Below are positions 26,092 through 41,940 of a stretch of 64,000 bases of DNA, piece by piece. Made by a program: the position numbers and the translations under genes. The stretch's first letter is position 1, and each line of letters opens with the position of its first letter. Source of the DNA: Lentinula raphanica (taxonomy: Eukaryota > Basidiomycota > Agaricomycetes > Agaricales > Omphalotaceae); contig JANVFP010000027.1 of the NCBI GenBank assembly GCA_027919835.1, positions 186,001-250,000 of the forward strand, given 5' to 3'. Below the pieces are notes generated by a model, which had not been told where the DNA came from, did no database searches, and saw nothing but the letters and a program-made list of their open reading frames with translations.

Positions 26092-26634
26092 CACCATATT
26101 CTGCCAGACTTTTGCAAAAGATTCCAATAACTATCCAGAAGTGTTTTGCAAAATATCTGGATAGTTATCACCACTGCCACAAATGAATATTTAAATCAGT
26201 TAAAAAAGAATTTAAAAAATAATAAAAATACTAAAAAACTGGGATTAAGCGACAAATCAGGCCCCGACCGACATAGGGAGGGGTCTGATTTGTTGCCCAA
26301 CATCAGGTAACTAGGGTTAGGGGTTAGGGGGTTGGGGCCTGTTAGGGGTTAGGGGTTGAGGATATTTTTCATGGGTTAGGGGTTAGGGTTAGGGGTTGGG
26401 GTTAGGGGTTGGGAGGTAGCCCTAGACCTATATTACATAAGGGGGGTCTCAGTTTTCTCTAAAATGCCTGGTTCAAGAGATATAAGCAATTCATTTTAAA
26501 AAATAATATTTAAATTCTTTTTAAATGATTTAAATATTATTTTTTTAGTAGGGCCAATAAGTTATCCAGATTTTTTGCAAAACGTCTCTGGACAGTTATC
26601 GGGATCTTTTGCAAAAGCCTGGCAGAATCAGCTG
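26092..26634 (+). mobile_element. 543-bp MITE, left copy, with telomere-like repeats
   Basis: The ends are imperfect inverted repeats: CACCATATTCTGCCAGAC at the left and, read inward from the right, CAGCTGATTCTGCCAGGC, each followed by CTTTTGCAAAAGAT. Inside are AT-rich arms and about 100 bases of TTAGGGG-type repeats. An inverted copy lies at 28041-28585. Left flank CATGACT (26085-26091) and right flank TATAAAC (26635-26641) do not match each other, but each matches a flank of the other copy. This is explained by an inversion between the two copies. Confidence 0.9.
26311..26413 (+). repeat. Interstitial telomere-like TTAGGGG repeats inside the MITE
   Basis: Irregular units of TTAGGGG/TTGGGG/TTAGGG run over about 100 bases, interrupted near 26360-26375 by GAGGATATTTTTCATG. 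The reverse-complement array lies at 28263-28366 in the second MITE copy. The units resemble tremellomycete telomere repeats, but the array is part of a mobile element here. Confidence 0.85.
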
Positions 26635-26650
26635 TATAAACATATCTTTG

Positions 26651-27212
26651 ATGCATTCTTCCTTGTCAGCCACTATTTTGTCAGTGCTTCCACCACAGCA
26701 AAAGCCTACCACTGTCAACAGAAGTGTCGCGCGCGCGCCTCGGTCCTGTATCGACATACTTGTTGACTCCCTTCGAATGAAGGCTCAAGGAACCACAGGG
26801 TATGCCGATTTCAAGAAAGATCGTCATCGCCCACTTCAGAACAGTGAAATTGTGCTGCGATGGAATTTCGCTGTCGAATTTCAGGATCAGCATGTAGGCA
26901 GAGTTGATGGGATCTCCGTGAGCATGCAGTATGAAGCACAAGTTATCGTACTCATCATTCTCTTAGGGCCTGATCCCAACTGATAATGTCATTGCTGAGG
27001 CTCTGGGATACAGCTTAAGCTGGCTTTCACTTGCCCGAAGAGGGATTCAGATACTGCGGAGACATGGTCCTGCGGGTCAAAATCCTATCGCAACTATAGT
27101 CGCAGAAATCAATACTGAACGTCATGTTCCTTGTGGCATAGTTGCACTGAGTCAATTCCTTCGACAACAAGAATCTGAATGGATTACTCAGACGCATGTA
27201 CATGTAGTCTAA
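26651..27212 (+). CDS. Unrecognised 170-residue protein inside the inverted segment
   Basis: Two exons, 26651-26917 and 26967-27212, join in frame through a 49-base GTGAGC..CTTAG intron. The start ATG lies only ten bases after the TSD of the second MITE insertion event. The protein begins MHSSLSATILSVLPPQQKP. It contains VLRWNFAVEFQDQH in the middle and a helical C-terminal half (ALGYSLSWLSLARRGIQILR), ending WITQTHVHVV. There is no signal peptide or helix long enough for a membrane segment, and no domain I recognise. In the pre-inversion order this gene was on the opposite strand, converging on the recombinase C-terminus. It may be cargo of the Crypton-type element or an unrelated host gene. 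Low certainty that it is expressed. Confidence 0.5.
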
Positions 27213-27454
27213 TAAACTTGAACTGTGTATTCTTACAGCTTTGATTGCCTGGTAGCCTATACAACATGAGTCCACATAAGTGAAGTCTTATTCAAGCACC
27301 TATGAGTAGATTCAAGCAGACACATCACCGAATATCAGATTCACAAGTATAGCCAAAGAGGACATGTATGATGTAACAAGAATCAGATTGAGATATGCAG
27401 AGCACACAGTATATAGTACACCCTATCACAGAACTAACACTCATACAGTTACCA
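27213..27454. other. Spacer between convergent coding segments
   Basis: About 240 AT-rich bases between the 170-residue gene and the displaced recombinase C-terminus. No coding signal is visible. Confidence 0.45.
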
Positions 27455-28033
27455 TTATCGGTTTGAGCAATAGAACCCTGCAGCATCTCTGAGCATTTTG
27501 AACTGTTCCACTTTCACCTTCGGGCTCTGCAGCCATCGTAAGAAATTACTTGTTGTCTGAAGATGCACCATGTCTGGATCCTTGTTCGGAGTGATAGGGT
27601 AAGTAGAGTCCAAAAACTCAAACACGAGGTCAACACCCCAGTTTGGCCGGTCCTTTAGGGTTGACACCAGCTCAAAAAGCCGAAGACGACGACAAAGTTC
27701 CGTGCGTTTACCCTGATCTCCGAAATGCCAGCTCGTATCCCATCGACCCTCTAATTGCTGGACAGATAATTGACCGTTGATACCAAAGGCAAATTCGTTC
27801 CATATTTCCCGTCGACTGATATCCTTTGCAAATGAATACGATGGTATCCAATCGGCCTGTTTTGCCTTGTATCCCCAGGTCCAATTATGGGCGATAACCT
27901 TGTCACGTCCAAGCTGTGATTCGATAGAGGCGATACATGATTCTTGAGCAGGCGAAAACTCTGCACGATTGATGGGTGTCAAACCGGAACTCGACTTGAC
28001 AAAGAATGCTGCCTTGGTACGTAATTGGTCTGT
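27455..28033 (-). pseudogene. Displaced C-terminal GCR1_C-like part of the Crypton-type recombinase
   Basis: Read on the minus strand from 28033 to the stop at 27455, the frame continues exactly where the plus-strand gene stops at 26091 (SSTSMT, then TDQLRTKAAFF). It encodes TWGYKAKQADWIPSYSFAKD, then REIWNEFAFGINGQLSVQQL and RWDTSWHFGDQGKRTE. The pattern EIW.EF..GINGQ.S...L..RW...W resembles the GCR1_C DNA-binding domain that ends many fungal Crypton recombinases. It now has no own start and faces the wrong way. The MITE at 28041 separates it from any promoter. Confidence 0.8.
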
Positions 28034-28040
28034 AGTCATG

Positions 28041-28585
28041 CAGCTGATTCTGCCAGGCTTTTGCAAAAGATCCCGATAACTGTCCAGAGACGTTTTGCAA
28101 AAAATCTGGATAACTTATTGGCCCTACTAAAAAAATAATATTTAAATCATTTAAAAAAGAATTTAAATATTATTTTTTAAAATGAATTGCTTATATCTCT
28201 TGAACCAGGCATTTTTAGAGAAAACTGAGACCCCCCTTATGTAATATAGGTCTAGGGCTACCTCCCAACCCCTAACCCCAACCCCTAACCCTAACCCCTA
28301 ACCCATGAAAAATATCCTCAACCCCTAACCCCTAACAGGCCCCAACCCCCTAACCCCTAACCCTAGTTACCTGATGTTGGGCAACAAATCAGACCCCTCC
28401 CTATGTCGGTCGGGGCCTGATTTGTCGCTTAATCCCAGTTTTTTAGTATTTTTATTATTTTTTAAATTCTTTTTTAACTGATTTAAATATTCATTTGTGG
28501 CAGTGGTGATAACTATCCAGATATTTTGCAAAACACTTCTGGATAGTTATTGGAATCTTTTGCAAAAGTCTGGCAGAATATGGTG
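28041..28585 (-). mobile_element. 545-bp MITE, right copy (inverted relative to 26092-26634)
   Basis: This copy is nearly identical in reverse complement to 26092-26634 over its full length. Inner end CAGCTGATTCTGCC at 28041, outer end GGCAGAATATGGTG at 28585. The inner flank is AGTCATG (28034-28040) and the outer flank GTTTATA (28586-28592); their reverse complements match CATGACT at 26085 and TATAAAC at 26635. The high identity of the two copies points to recent activity. Confidence 0.9.
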
Positions 28586-31427: not shown

Positions 31428-32264
31428 ATGCGCCTATATTCATTATCCGTGGTCCTCCTTTCCTTCCACTCGATCTTTGTCATGGCCGTTCCGTTGCCAG
31501 ACGTCATCTTTGATCCCGGCACACCTACTCTTGCACGTCGTCGCGGTCGTAAGTTAAAGTTCCTTTCCTGAGGTTCATGATTATCTCAATCTGTTGATCG
31601 TCTTTTTGAAACAGGCGATGTTGCGAATGTGGTATTTGAACCACTGCCGAGACAAAGTTGGCGAGTTCGGTACACTAATAGAGTATTGTTGAATCCCGTT
31701 CTATCGGACCCTAACGAGGGATGGAAATTCCAATCTAGAATGACCAAGGCGCCGTTAACTGCCGGTCATGTCATGCTGGGGAAATACACTGGGATCGACG
31801 ATGAAAACAAGGCTGGCACTCAGAAGAAAATCACAGCGTTGCGAGCAAAGAGTGCTGGAGCTCTAATGGCAGGGTTGATGTCTATACTCGCTCTTGATTC
31901 TGAACTACCCAGGTTTGGACTCAAATTCCAACCTGGTGGCCCAAAACCTGGGATTCCGAATTCTGATCCTTGGGCTGTATTTCATGATTCAAAAACCATG
32001 CGTCCTGCAGAATTTCGGGAGAAATACGGTTGCGAGTCTGAAGCTTGGCAGATGGCCTTGGGGAGGAACTTGCGGAAAGGACCGCCGGAGGTACATCAGG
32101 AATCACAGCCAAAGGTGAACGAGGAAGTACCGCCGGAGGGAGTCCAGTCGAAGGAGGTCGAGGAAGTACAGCCAAAGGGGCTCGAGCAAGCACAGCCAAG
32201 CGAGGTGCAACAAGCAGGGAATCTCTCAGCGGATAAAATGTCGATTCAGCATTTAATTCACTGA
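31428..32264 (+). CDS. Small secreted protein family, copy A
   Basis: Two exons (31428-31548 and 31615-32264) give 256 residues. The N-terminus MRLYSLSVVLLSFHSIFVMA is a signal peptide, followed by VPLPDV and a basic RRRGR stretch near 37-42 that could be a processing site. The mature part contains GHVMLGKYTG, a Pro/Gly-rich FQPGGPKPGIPNSDPW and FREKYGCESEAWQMAL, the family signature. The tail consists of short Glu/Gln/Pro/Val repeats (EVQPKGLEQAQPSEVQQ) and ends MSIQHLIH. The single intron lies just after the signal-peptide exon in every intact copy. There is no enzyme motif and few cysteines. An extracellular role is likely from the signal peptide; anything more is unknown. The plus-strand copies A and B are the most diverged pair of the family in the window. 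Confidence 0.75.
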
Positions 32265-35570: not shown

Positions 35571-35731
35571 ATACTGTACCGCAAACGAGAGTTAGCTGCC
35601 TCATAAGCGACGGCCCAGCTTGCCGTCCCGGTGTTCTTTTGTATATATATACGGAATAGGGCCGTTTCACCGAGCTACTGTGTTGCCGCAATTGCCGCAA
35701 GCGCACTTCAGGCGCTGACACAGCTTTTTGC

Positions 35732-35791
35732 CTGGAGGCTGAATTAGGCAAGGTCGTCTCAGAGGTCGACCTTGCCTAATTCGGCCTCCAG
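35732..35791. repeat. Inverted repeat with 25-bp arms near the transposon left end
   Basis: The arms 35732-35756 and 35767-35791 start CTGGAGGC and end GCCTCCAG, with one mismatch and a 10-base spacer. It lies 90 bases before the alpha-kinase ATG, in its presumed leader. It could be a transposase-binding or expression-control structure. Confidence 0.8.
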
Positions 35792-35882
35792 AGAATTTCG
35801 GGCGCTTTTTCAATTTCTCTCTCAGCTTCGACTTCTTTTCTCTATTCTTTCATGCTGTGATATCATCATTCTTTACTTCTTG

Positions 35883-38209
35883 ATGTCCAGACCATCGAGT
35901 TCCGTCATTGCATCTATTACCAATGCTCAAGCAGTATCATGTGAACGTTGTAATGTCTGTCCTATTGAAGGAAAACATTACTTCGTGAAATCAAGCAAGA
36001 ATGGTCCGAGTCGTCGAGTGTGCAGCAACTGTTACCAACACTATGTGGAGAAAAAGGATAGACAGAACTCGGTAGCTGCTTCTGCAGGTAATATCTGCAT
36101 ATGATTCATATTATAAGCACGCTAAATGAAACTGCTCAGGTGGTAGTATGAGCGTAATCCACACACAAAGTACCTCAGCTAGGATTCAAAAAGATGTTAA
36201 TAAGGCTCAGCGAGGAGGTACGTAGGATACGTTAGGGATTTTTGGACCTCATATACTAACGTCTATGTAGAATTCGAAGGACAACACATAGTCAAGGCTG
36301 TATCAAATCTCAAGCCTATGGCACCTCCTCCCAATATTCCTCTTGCTGTCAAGATTCCTTTTCCTGAGCATCTCCGGAGTAGGATTGGCGGTCACACAGG
36401 CTATAGCTCTGCTCATGAATTATATTCTTCATGTCATCAGTTCTTTCATGACCGAGCAATGTGTGCCGGTAATACTGAACTCGTTACTTTGAGTGCAACA
36501 ATGGTTTATGCAAAGGGTGGTAGGTTCAAAGCAGTTGGGGTATGTCTTTGTCCTCCTCAAGTGTTGCGTCTTGCTCAAGAGATGTTTGACAGGATGTTAC
36601 TGCAATAATTCCACATATCAACGTTCGTGTCGGATATCACGATCTCTACAGTGTTCTATACATCTACCTTCTTCCACTCTGGTTGAAGTATTCCCGGAAC
36701 GTTCAGCTCCTTCAATCCGATACTGTCCTCTGCAATGACCTTCACGCGGCAATGCTTGCAAAGACTCCTGATATTGACGTAATCAAGGACAAGTGCTATG
36801 AGGTCAAAGGGCGAAACAAAACAAAGTCTCTCATTCGTAACAAGCCCATCAAAGTTTTCCTCCACGTTGATGCCAAATTTGTGAATGAGGCAGACTTTCG
36901 ACGTGTCCAGTTCACAGAAGATGAGGCTCCAGATATAGATTCGGTGATGACATATGTGCGCTTTCATATTTATGAGCAAATTATTTGATCTAACTTCAGG
37001 ACCAGACTGTAACTAGATCAGCTACGACTTCCACAAAACGTCGTCGTTCTACCGATTCCTTCTATGATTCTTCTGCTGGGGATGGACCGGTTGCAATCAA
37101 GAAATCCAAACTTACTCAAGATTCTTTCGTTGTGCCCGTTACTATCGATAATCCCATCTCAATCCCTTCGCCTTCACCTTCTGTCTCAAGGGCTGACATT
37201 CGTCAGGCGCTTATTCAGCAAACTGTTCTCCGCCAAAATTCAGGTAAGAGTATTGCCCCTGTTGATACTAGATATCGGTCTCAATCTATCTAGCTCCTGT
37301 TTCATTGAAATGTGTCGTTCATTGTCTTCCAGATTTCTCATGGTCAGACTTGATTGAGAATCCAACGAAATCTCAGAATTTGCGCCAAAATTTTCCCGGT
37401 ATAGAGACGACAGTGATATATGATCCAAAGCAGACAGCTCATGAAGGTTCCTTCAAGATGGCCTTGGTACATTGCTCCACTTCGAAGATTGTCGTGGGTG
37501 AAGGTACCAGAGTTTGTCTCAAACGCTGCTTCGATCGTGATGTCACCAACGGTGAAAAGCTCATGTACTGCAAGGACAAGCAGTTCGAAGAGCTTTCCCG
37601 AGAGCTGAACTGCTTGCTTTGGGCAAAAATCATGCTTCGCCTTGTATATGATTATATTGACAGCGCAAACGAAAGCTCCGGATCGGTTCCTCCATTTTCC
37701 ATTCCGAAACTACATTTCGTTGATGCTGCTCTTGCTGTCGTAACTGCAGCTGATGGACGTGAAGAGTTTTACATGATCGAAGAGCTTATTCCAGAGAATC
37801 ATGGATGGTCTTTCACCAAGTATATATGTAACAACTCCGCGGTGCCATTGCTATCCAATAATCTGGAGTCTCAACATACTGCAGAAAGAAATCACTGTGC
37901 TCGTTTCCTTTCTTTTGCACAGCATATCCAATACATTCAGACCTCATCACTTGCTTTCACAAGTGACTTTCAGGGCGCAAACCATCTTTTGACTGATCCT
38001 CAAATAATCACTGATCCGTAAGTGTCATTATTGATGTTCTCATCTATTACATTTGCTCAAGTCTTCATAGCCTTCTTGGTACCCAGCTCTTTGCACGTGG
38101 AAATGTTGCCTTTGATATGCTTTTGACTACACACATCTGTTCTGGCAATGAGTTTTGTGAATTTTATAAGCCTTCTAGATCTAATTTTACTGCACCTGAC
38201 TCCGCCTAG
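35883..38209 (+). CDS. Zinc-ribbon plus alpha-kinase-like protein, transposon-borne
   Basis: Seven exons join in frame: 35883-36087, 36140-36217, 36271-36539, 36593-36955, 37000-37243, 37294-38017 and 38071-38209, giving 673 residues. The N-terminus has CERCNVC and CSNC (about residues 18-24 and 44-47), a C4-type zinc-binding pattern. A central stretch near residues 305-330 is basic (STKRRRSTDS) and could target the nucleus. The C-terminal ~270 residues look like an alpha-kinase (MHCK/eEF2K class): VCLKRCFDR (candidate ATP-site lysine), FYMIEELIPE, then AFTSDFQGANHLLTDPQIITDP, with the D-x-Q-G and LTDPQI signatures. THICSGNEFCEFYKP fits the zinc-binding end of that fold. It should phosphorylate Ser/Thr on proteins. 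Its place between the TIRs and opposite the transposase suggests cargo or a regulator of transposition. Confidence 0.82.
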
Positions 38210-38358
38210 TCTAATATACCATTTCTTTCAATGCATCTACACTCATTTGAAATTTCTTGATATCCACTATAGTCTCCTTTACACTTCTCACTCATTTTGC
38301 AATAGTTAGAATACATCACTTTGAATTTATATACCCATTACTAGTAGAGAACAATTTA

Positions 38359-40285
38359 TTACACAGCTAATGATTCTTCGACCTCTTCTTCTGAGTCAGT
38401 AAAATCAACAGACAACATTGACCTGTCGGAGTCAACACCATCCATCTCCTTTTCCTCCTCCTCTTCATCCGTAAAATCAACTTCAAAATAGTTTTCACTA
38501 TCTTGGCGGAAAAATGGATTTGCAATTTCCTGATCAGTCAAACCCTCTTCACCAATAACTTTGCCATTGTAGCGCAGCTCTGCCTGGCCTTCCATCAAAT
38601 TGACCATTTCAGAATTGATCAGCTCTTCATTTGCCAAAAACTCTTGAACTTCATGACTAAGAGTCATGTTGTTCTGAGTTTCAGACTGAAAGAGCTGAAG
38701 AAGACTGGTGTATACATCCCAGAATGTGTGTATAGTGATATCAGGGGAATGGAGCTCATGTTCTAGGAAATATAAAGCTCGTTGGTTGAATTCAGGTGGT
38801 GTCAACTGAAAAACTGGATGATCGGGAGGTGCATATTTTGCTTCCATTTTCTGAAGAAGGTCTTCATCTACACCAATCTGTAATATACATTATATCAAAA
38901 ACTTGTTTTACTGCTAAAATTCTGTTAATCCTACCTTGAAATCTACTGCACCATATTGATGCGGGAATTTTTGAATAAGTGCAGGGATTCCATGAGGAAG
39001 GACTTTATGACGGTCTGGACGAGGCTTTGAGTGATTTCGTCGATTTGCCCAGGCATCACATTCTTTTTGCATGAATGGGATGGCTAGCTGACGGAAAACA
39101 AGGCTATGAATTTGGATCTATGAAATCAGATTGTAATCTTGGATTGGGCAAACTTACTATTCGAGATTTACATCAGGATCATATAAACCAGAAAGTACAC
39201 CTTTGTTGAATAGATCTTCAAATCCAGGAGCAAAATCCCTCCGATATACAGACCTAATATGATTACAGTCAAAGTCTACAAATTCAAAGATAGGAAAACT
39301 CACCAGTTGATTTCTGATTTGATATTCTTTTTCTTTCGCATGAATCTATGCTGAAGTGTACCTTGCAAACTGGGATCAAGATGCTGTCTAATCTCTGTTT
39401 GCATATTTGCCACTCCAAAATTCTCAGAACCTGGATCACTCATGCTAGTCAATGGGATGTAACCTAGATATCATACTCAGGATGAAGGTAAAATGAGCCT
39501 ATATGGATATAACATACCAGCACATGTAGAATCCTTGAGGTTGCGTGCAGCACCAAGATAATAGCTATTGATCAGTATAGGATTTTTATTTGTCCACCAG
39601 CATTTAACCCAATGGTTATATCCAGTGAAAGGATCAATGGCATTATGAAAGCGGAGACCAAACCGTTGAAACTTGTCATGCTGATCCAGGCACCACATAT
39701 CCGATACACCTGCAGCATAGTAAATACGCCGTCGGAATCTGTTTCCTCTTCTTGCTGCAACTGCTTCAGGTTCAACGGTTTGTAATAGTTTCAAAATGAT
39801 CTCTCTATCACAACTTGTGTTAGTATCTGAAATCAACTTGATACAATCACTAACCTTGTTGCTTTTATGCCATACTCCAAACTCAACATGATCCTGATTC
39901 CCTCAGCACCTTTAGTCAGAAACTTTTCCTTGATTTTCTCTACAGATGCTCGTACTGTTTCCACAGTATGGGCCTGTTTACGTGTAGACAATAGACCCCA
40001 ATCTTGTAGCCATCGCCTATACGTATACACACTTTTGCATTGTGAGATATCACATAAAAACATAGGAATACTGTCCATACCTCAAACCATAAGCATCTGT
40101 ATCATAATATTCCTTGAGAAGCTCAACTGCTTCTGTATCTGCAATGCTCAGGCGCCAGAACTGTTCTATGACATCCCTCAAAGTTTCTTTCGGAGCTATG
40201 AATGCAGAGCATCAACAGATCAAAGCTGATCCATAGAGAAGCAATACTCACGATTGGGCCGATGCTGATTCTTTTGTTTGGGCAT
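38359..40285 (-). CDS. Integrase-type DDE transposase (IS3EU-like)
   Basis: Eight exons join in frame: 40285-40252, 40195-40081, 40016-39855, 39804-39518, 39463-39304, 39253-39158, 39103-38935 and 38877-38359, giving 513 residues. The N-terminal half is helical with YGLRRWLQDWG and AVAARRGNRFRRRIYYAAGV, like the DNA-binding part of this family. The catalytic core reads SDMWCLDQHDKFQRFGLRFH (first Asp), DPFTGYNHWVKCWWTNKNP, then MSDPGSENFGVANMQ (second Asp) and KKKNIKSEINWSVYRRDFAP (Glu). That is the D-D-E order of rve-fold integrases. FMQKECDAWANRRNHSKPRP and HKVLPHGIPALIQ follow. The tail is very acidic (VDFTDEEEEEKEMDG). It should cut and join the TIR ends of this element. The frame is intact. 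It converges on the alpha-kinase gene with 149 bases between stops. Confidence 0.88.
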
Positions 40286-40414
40286 AACAAAGATGTAACT
40301 CAACAATGGTAATCCTATGCTGAGTATGAACAGTGGTGAAGAGAAGTGCCTATGGACGTAGCAAGAATAGTGAAATTTGGATTACATGATATTGGCGCTT
40401 AGCATCAAGTGTAA

Positions 40415-40471
40415 TTACATAACACCGGATACACCGGGTTAAGCGTGGTTACATAACGCCGGATACACCGG
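40415..40471 (+). repeat. Two subterminal direct repeats of the transposon
   Basis: TTACATAACACCGGATACAC.. at 40415 and TTACATAACGCCGGATACAC.. at 40449 are 23-bp near-identical copies 11 bases apart. They lie just inside the right TIR. Subterminal repeats are typical transposase-binding sites. Confidence 0.75.
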
Positions 40472-40686
40472 TAAGCGAGGCAGCTAACTCTCGTTTGCGG
40501 TAATACTGCGCCGTCGCATCTCGATGCCTCCGATTCAATCCGGGAACAAACGGGACACGTCGCTCAACACAGCCTTTTTTTCACCTTCAACCGTAACATT
40601 CATCATCTGGTACGTGAACCCCCCCCCCCCCCCAAATTCCTCTGAAGCTCTCTGAAACTGGCTCTAGTACGTCAAGGTCACAAAAA

Positions 40687-41080: not shown

Positions 41081-41940
41081 ATGCGCCTACTACCGTTTTC
41101 CCTATGTTCACTATCAGTGTTCCTCCTTTCCTGCCACTCGATCTCCGTGGTCATGGCTGTTCCGTTCCCTACCCCAGCCGGCCCTAGTAAGTTCCTTGTT
41201 ATATGATTATTTAATGTTTTTTAAATATGTAAATTGTCTTAGAAAAAGTGAATATCATGAAGCTATGGGTTGAAGTCCTCAATCTAGAGGAATGGCGACT
41301 TCAGCTTGGTTCCAAGACATTAGCAAATCCCTCGAACATAGATGACAACAAATGGAAGTTCAAGTGGACTGAATACAGCTCTAAGCGGGGGTATGGCCCG
41401 AATTTCGTCGAACTGGGAGCATTCCAAGTCCCTTCAGGCTCCCGATTTGGCAAAGATGACAAGAACGCCGTGAAGGATGGAATAGGAACATTACGAGCAG
41501 GTAACTTAGAAGCTCTATTGGAAGATCTGCTGGTTTCTCTCTCTCCTGAAACTACTTCCACTTGTCATTCTGACTCCACCACTCAACATGACTCCCCTGC
41601 TCGACTGAAGTTGCCTCCCAGAGTCACTTTCACTGTCACCAGGTCAGAAAGTGACCCCCACAATGATGCTTGGGCTATATTGCTGGACTCAAAAAAACTG
41701 AATCCTATGGTTTTCCTGAAAAAATACGGTCGCGCGCCCAGTAACTGGATTCAGGCCTTGGGGACACAGGGAAGGGAGTTCAAAGAAAAGTTTCATGCAG
41801 CGCAGAAGGCGGCAGCGAAGAAAGCGGAGAAGGAGGAAGCAGAGAGATTGGCAAAGGAGGCAGCGGAGAAGGCAGAGAAGGAGGCATCAAGCTCGACGAC
41901 AGCGGGCTCGATGCTGTCAGTAGCACAGATGCTCAACTGA
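41081..41940 (+). CDS. Small secreted protein family, copy B
   Basis: Two exons (41081-41186 and 41243-41940) give 267 residues. The signal peptide MRLLPFSLCSLSVFLLSCHS leads to VVMAVPFPTPAGP. The mature part carries FVELGAFQVPSGSRFG, PPRVTFTVTRSESDPHNDAW and FLKKYGRAPSNWIQAL, matching the family order: LG(A/S/K)(F/Y), then VTF..., then YG(L/R/C)xxxxW. The tail is a highly charged coiled coil (KKAEKEEAERLAKEAAEKAE) ending MLSVAQMLN, similar to the end of copy A. It has an intact frame. Its upstream region is interrupted at 35577-40502 by the transposon, which may have changed its regulation. Confidence 0.75.

Follow-up and report, generated by a model that had tools for sequence, protein, structure and literature searches.

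An IS3EU-type DNA transposon of Lentinula raphanica with an alpha-kinase as its second gene

Why does a DNA transposon carry a protein kinase, and is such a gene a lasting part of the element or a chance acquisition? The question is raised by a 64,000-nt stretch of the Lentinula raphanica genome (contig JANVFP010000027.1, positions 186,001-250,000; hereafter the window, whose coordinates are used below unless a contig label is given). Here, we report that positions 35577-40502 of the window are a cut-and-paste transposon of the IS3EU type with an alpha-kinase as its second gene beside the integrase. The alpha-kinase is an established gene of this group of transposons and not a one-off capture, because three diverged sub-lineages, with two gene orders between them, have it together with the integrase, because it also adjoins more distant IS3EU-like integrases, and because it is under purifying selection where this is measurable. 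Accessory enzymes kept by DNA transposons, for example the fungal TET/JBP enzymes, reveal how elements meet host silencing. A conserved transposon kinase, if true, would add phosphorylation to the anti-silencing toolkit, and the alpha-kinase genes of such genomes would be explained as transposon genes; the element also offers a testable two-gene system (integrase and kinase). The genome searched was the 49.06 Mb assembly in 75 contigs, with contigs labelled C1, C2, C35 and so on; C35a and C35b are two elements on contig C35, and C4:331k and C4:348k are two kinase loci on C4. Short introns and the presence of IS3EU and Tet_JBP sequences agree with a fungal, probably basidiomycete, genome.

The element and its two genes

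The features of the element are as follows. Gene models were predicted from sequence alone, with GT-AG splicing and homology support from C35b.

35571..35576, no strand: left target site duplication (TSD), ATACTG
35577..40502, no strand: complete IS3EU-type DNA transposon, 4,926 bp, with terminal inverted repeats (TIRs), TSD and three further copies elsewhere
35577..35602, plus strand: left TIR, 26 bp, perfect, 100% complementary to the right TIR
35883..38209, plus strand: alpha-kinase gene, seven exons (35883-36087, 36140-36217, 36271-36539, 36593-36955, 37000-37243, 37333-38017, 38071-38209), predicted 660 aa; open spliced frame, PF02816 above cut-off, homologous C35b model free of stops
35940..36035, plus strand: putative zinc-binding module near the N-terminal end of the protein (Cys 20, 23, 48, 51), a sequence pattern only
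37333..38170, plus strand: alpha-kinase domain (K450, H584, D598, Q600, D608, H636, C638, C644), PF02816 match over residues 505-639
38359..40285, minus strand: DDE integrase/transposase gene, eight exons, predicted 513 aa with an acidic C-terminal tail; PF24764 match and D, D, E columns
40407..40471, no strand: two 31-nt subterminal direct repeats, 87% alike, adjoining the right TIR, putative transposase sites
40477..40502, minus strand: right TIR, 26 bp, perfect, 100% complementary to the left TIR
40503..40508, no strand: right TSD, ATACTG

An earlier note on this DNA had described a complete transposon, and the perfect TIRs with the same duplication on both sides bear this out. Allowing three mismatches or fewer, the TIR pattern matched twice within the window and never in 100 shuffles. 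Across the genome it matched eight times (seven exactly, one with a single mismatch), which corresponds to both ends of four copies. The C2 copy (C2:1610945-1615870) is full length at 4,926 bp and 99.5% identical to the window copy, and those on C19 (C19:724316-728751; 4,436 bp, 98.6-98.8% identity in two pieces) and C53 (C53:67842-69210; 1,369 bp) are internally deleted. All four carry distinct 6-bp TSDs (ATACTG in the window, TCCACT in C2, GGACAG in C19 and TGAGAG in C53). Chance occurrence of the TIRs and TSD is ruled out by the empty shuffles and the four copies with distinct duplications. The kinase is open in the window copy only (one of the four): in C2 a stop interrupts the frame early, at codon 45, C19 has lost 490 bp of the kinase and has altered aspartates at kinase position 598 (D598N) and integrase position 144, and in C53 the whole integrase and the greater part of the kinase are gone. 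The integrase is free of stops in the window, C2 and C19 copies.

The element thus combines the characters of IS3EU, namely an rva_4-type DDE integrase, 6-bp TSDs and TIRs, where we take PF24764 (rva_4) to represent IS3EU. This profile scored 30.7 bits on the window integrase (cut-off 26) and 36.6 bits on that of C35b, and the D, D and E columns of the window integrase align with those of three canonical rva_4 integrases found elsewhere in this genome. The introns of the window integrase are of the GT-AG type and 50-64 bp long. The acidic, Ser/Asp-rich tail pointed out earlier is indeed present, also in C35b, and carries a repeated DFTDxE-like motif in both; the tail of the C1 integrase, acidic as well, has no DFTD repeat.

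The kinase gene lies on the plus strand, convergent with the integrase and 149 bp from it. Its introns (GT-AG, 44-89 bp) leave a spliced frame without an internal stop, so that the earlier description of an intact protein stands, with a length of 660 residues in the present model instead of 673. PF02816 (Alpha_kinase) scored 38.0 bits against a cut-off of 21.3; with both Pfam profiles above their cut-offs, the earlier reading of an IS3EU-like DDE integrase opposite an alpha-kinase was upheld. The residues K450, H584, D598, Q600, D608, H636, C638 and C644 (window numbering) are invariant in four aligned element kinases and presumably correspond by position to the ATP-binding, catalytic, metal and zinc sites of myosin heavy chain kinase A (MHCK A) and TRPM7. 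The D-x-Q-G...L-x-TDPQI core of Dictyostelium MHCK A (3lkm, 3pdt) aligns with the window kinase. The usual zinc site of alpha-kinases is H-x-C-x3-C, whereas that of the window kinase is H-x-C-x5-C, its second cysteine standing two residues further on. A sequence search of the PDB gave weak, non-significant matches to alpha-kinases (MHCK A, 3lkm and 3pdt; TRPM7-type, 1ia9; eEF2K, 7shq; best E 0.04), which point the same way as Pfam. AlphaFold2 on the main kinase exon alone (the domain spans an intron), with five sequences (the window and four relatives), gave a mean predicted local distance difference test score (pLDDT) of 39.3, too low for the model to be of use. The predicted alpha-kinase fold rests on the Pfam match and the conservation of residues.

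Outside the kinase domain, the CxxC motif that had been called a zinc motif is present as a cysteine pattern and is conserved in C35b (C-x2-C..C-x2-C in both, residues 20-51 of the window kinase), with C-x4-C..C-x2-C in C1 and C20; no Pfam model matched the module at E<=1. A V-N-x-A-Q-R-G motif follows it in the window, C35b and C1 kinases. The linker of the window and C35b kinases changes fast and yet retains a basic KRRRS/KRKRS motif, which suggests nuclear entry of the kinase. Within the element, shortly before the start of the kinase gene, positions 35732-35791 hold an inverted repeat of 25 bp (96%) around a loop of 10 bp, which could be a hairpin or a regulatory palindrome.

Recurrence of the pair in the genome

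A six-frame search of the genome with the window integrase found ten loci (three window-family copies, five on C35, one on C20 and one on C1) and one weak further match on C41 (E 8e-4), alongside which the kinase search of the genome found no kinase match. At all ten close loci a kinase match adjoins the integrase, only as a fragment at two of those on C35. The repeated pairing that the earlier note had looked for is thus found inside this one genome. The five loci on C35 make up a single cluster of some 26 kb and in part duplicate one another, so that the ten loci represent three sub-lineages. Each of these includes at least one element that has TIRs and a 6-bp duplication at its ends, and two gene orders occur overall.

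The best preserved relative is C35b (C35:215672-221274, 5,603 bp), which begins TACCGCAAGCGGGAGTTAG and has a perfect TSD (GACATG). Its genes are convergent as in the window and open along the whole aligned length (646 aa and 515 aa), without stop or frameshift. C35a has ends as in C35b, TIRs of 96 bp, unmatched flanks and a kinase-side flank identical to that of C35b, a pattern that fits a rearranged duplicate. The five integrase loci of this contig lie in C35:185461-211867 and 215672-221274, where flanking sequences in common point to segmental duplication or to inversion via the element ends. In the C1 element (632679-640485, 7,807 bp, TSD GATCCT, 6/6) and the C20 element (610054-615799, 5,746 bp, TSD GAAAGG/GTAAGG, 5/6, with an exact GGGATG pair five bases further outward), the TIRs are related to each other and the kinase and integrase are divergently arranged. 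Both integrases have one stop each. The C20 kinase lacks a middle part relative to C1. For the C1 kinase, two homology-guided models are free of stops; they disagree on some introns, and identity is low in their middle part. Long arrays of diverged short tandem repeats were noted between the kinase and the right TIR of both elements (C1 ~638270-638870, C20 ~614600-615200).

The Pfam Alpha_kinase profile gave 12 matches at 11 loci across the genome, seven of which are in the window-family, C35, C1 and C20 elements. Among the more distant kinases, the C39 and C4:331k loci are 99.4% alike over 2.6 kb. C4:331k lies in an element of 8,175 bp with TIRs TACGGTTGTCCTCAAGGACAA and a 7-bp duplication (AGCCCAG); one end of the C39 element could be placed, and the next matching end is 35 kb off. 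The C39 kinase adjoins an IS3EU-like integrase, which rve and rva_4 match at E 0.003, below their cut-offs. At C51, integrase-like stretches lie 2-4 kb from the kinase on the opposite strand, with E values of 5e-8 (C39 pieces) and 6e-5 (window integrase) from a search confined to 12 kb. The C4:348k locus has decayed and shows a weak match to an integrase N-terminus (E 5e-4) on the same strand as the kinase, an exception to the opposite orientation. Taken together, all 11 alpha-kinase loci adjoin an IS3EU-like integrase. The case is clear for seven of them, rests on weaker similarity for C39 and C51, is inferred for C4:331k from its identity to its sister C39, and is weak for C4:348k. The contrary pattern named earlier, a kinase inside the element only here and elsewhere outside such elements, was not what the genome holds. 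Short elements like miniature inverted-repeat transposable elements, with the TIRs of the C4 kinase element, were also seen at C13:404855-406535, C15:931365-933068 and C15:1038679-1040451; of the two whose flanks were read, one on C15 has a TSD (CATACA), and the C13 element is flanked by a CATTGG match three bases off.

The earlier note knew of no kinase described as a regular partner of this transposon class. That view has to be given up: according to section 4.1 of Kojima 2025 (PMC12730594), every TET+ IS3EU family (the hosts are Tuber indicum and seven species of rust) carries an alpha-kinase gene that runs opposite to the transposase. The pairing is therefore already known and spans Basidiomycota and Ascomycota, as that section gives it for rusts and a truffle. 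In the main text of the same paper 'kinase' appears twice, both times in one two-sentence passage without analysis, and a word search of the IS481EU paper (PMC10045372) found no instance of it. According to sections 3.1.3 and 4.1 of PMC12730594, the TET+ families share with the window element 6-bp TSDs, an IS3EU transposase and a kinase opposite to it. They differ in their termini (TAYGG..CCRTA, against TACCG..CGGTA in the window element) and in having a TET/JBP gene between the two genes, where the window element has only 149 bp. The window element itself has no TET/JBP gene: not one of the 28 Tet_JBP matches in this genome lies near it. Five of these matches were above the cut-off; judged by coordinates, the closest that any comes to a kinase locus is about 67 kb, on C39. 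Our data thus add conservation, selection, two gene orders and genome-wide linkage to the account of Kojima 2025; given a limited literature search, we do not claim that these are absent from print.

Selection and the possible role of the kinase

Between the window and C35b, the kinase has a nonsynonymous divergence (dN) of 0.41, with synonymous sites saturated, and ratios of nonsynonymous to synonymous differences (pN/pS, bootstrap) of 0.37-0.46 for the kinase and 0.22-0.31 for the integrase. Kinase identity in this pair is 35% in the linker (residues 306-390, the fastest part), 36% in residues 63-95 and 50-57% in the zinc module, middle and kinase regions. Between C1 and C20, the ratio of nonsynonymous to synonymous substitution rates (dN/dS) is 0.144 (bootstrap 0.096-0.218) over 240 codons of the kinase end, with the first 21 query residues excluded as poorly aligned, and 0.039 (bootstrap 0.023-0.060) over 387 codons of the integrase. 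Thus, both genes are under purifying selection, the kinase less strongly. In trees of the sequences of this genome, the window groups with C35 and C1 with C20 for the integrase, and the window with C35 for the kinase. Long branches meet in these trees, one kinase fork is open and the rows of C39, C51 and C4:348k are partial; the two trees appear compatible, and we claim neither co-phylogeny nor a single clade of kinase-bearing integrases.

These results bear on the view that the kinase is a passenger, that is, a host alpha-kinase gene caught between the TIRs. Such a view would suit the broken or deleted kinases in three of the four window-family copies, and the pairing does rest on three sub-lineages rather than ten events, with five of the ten loci in one C35 cluster. 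However, the pair was retained in these three sub-lineages and in two gene orders, the kinase is under purifying selection, and a six-frame Pfam search, as far as such a search reaches, detected no free-standing alpha-kinase in the genome that could be a donor. We regard the passenger view as largely contradicted and quite improbable; as the main explanation, we reject a single host-gene capture on the pairing at ten of ten loci together with the dN/dS of the kinase. Purifying selection would also be compatible with a kinase that benefits the host and is spread by the transposon as cargo. This seems very improbable, as decayed copies are common, no immobilized stand-alone copy was seen in the genome, and the corresponding part of Kojima 2025 (PMC12730594) favors element fitness over host benefit as the cause for TET/JBP genes. 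It is thus likely that the kinase serves the element, because it stayed with related elements and selection kept it working.

What the kinase acts on is a more tentative matter. The copies show a footprint of possible silencing: transitions at CpG sites account for 18 of the 26 differences between the window and C2 copies, 33 of 56 between window and C19, and 33 of 57 between C2 and C19, although the 144 CpG sites of the window copy make up only about 6% of its bases. The observed/expected CpG ratio is 0.68 in the element versus 0.87 in the rest of the window. An excess of CpG transitions is what methylation of cytosines and their deamination usually leave behind. Such decay makes counter-silencing a sensible need for the element, but does not show that the kinase meets it. 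Because TET/JBP enzymes accompany related elements and CpG decay is seen here, we lean toward chromatin or silencing as the target, a possibility to which we give somewhat less than even odds. As a whole, the favored reading would run as follows: the kinase may enter the nucleus through the KRRRS/KRKRS motif, its zinc module and middle domain may bind a partner, and it might then phosphorylate a host chromatin or silencing protein at element copies, which would ease expression or transposition of the element to its own benefit. The role would parallel that proposed for the TET/JBP enzymes of other IS3EU families. We consider this reading to fall just short of an even chance.

Alternatively, as the earlier note had suggested, the kinase might serve the element by phosphorylating its own transposase, for example on the acidic Ser/Thr tail, and so regulate timing or complex assembly. 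In favor, the two genes travel together, and both the window and C35b tails have the repeated DFTDxE-like motif. However, characterized alpha-kinases tend to favor basic or threonine contexts over acidic ones, and the C1 tail is acidic without the DFTD repeat; a transposase target appears rather unlikely. A broader statement, which spans either target, is on balance probable: the alpha-kinase would be a core component of an IS3EU sub-lineage, selected for the spread of the element and acting on silencing or the transposase, and in this genome the family would exist solely as transposon genes.

Several points weigh against the favored reading of a nuclear kinase that counters silencing. With an intact kinase in just one of the four family copies, that of the window, the gene is not required in cis by each copy, and it may be dispensable altogether. 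The kinase evolves faster than the integrase in both pairs compared (window-C35b and C1-C20), and the stretches corresponding to TDPQ and H-x-C in the C39, C51 and C4:348k kinases are missing or unmodelled in the family alignment. The kinase target is a guess, and decay of CpG sites, frequent in repeats generally, does not implicate a kinase. Finally, the canonical rva_4 elements of the genome differ from the window element in that no kinase match lies nearby. The 87 rva_4 matches represent 51 loci, none of which has an Alpha_kinase match within 55 kb in the six-frame Pfam searches (the nearest match starts 59.9 kb away); both searches may miss diverged, intron-split genes, and the window integrase itself is absent from the rva_4 list. 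Kinase carriage is accordingly a property of part of the IS3EU diversity.

Surroundings of the element in the window

On either side of the element, the reading frames 31629-32264 and 41248-41940 encode proteins that by eye seem related (DPWAVFHDSK.. and DAWAILLDSK..) and perhaps belong to a local gene family. Further upstream, at 26314-28363, inverted arrays of GGGTTAG-type repeats about 2 kb apart enclose a frame of 203 aa, possibly another mobile element.

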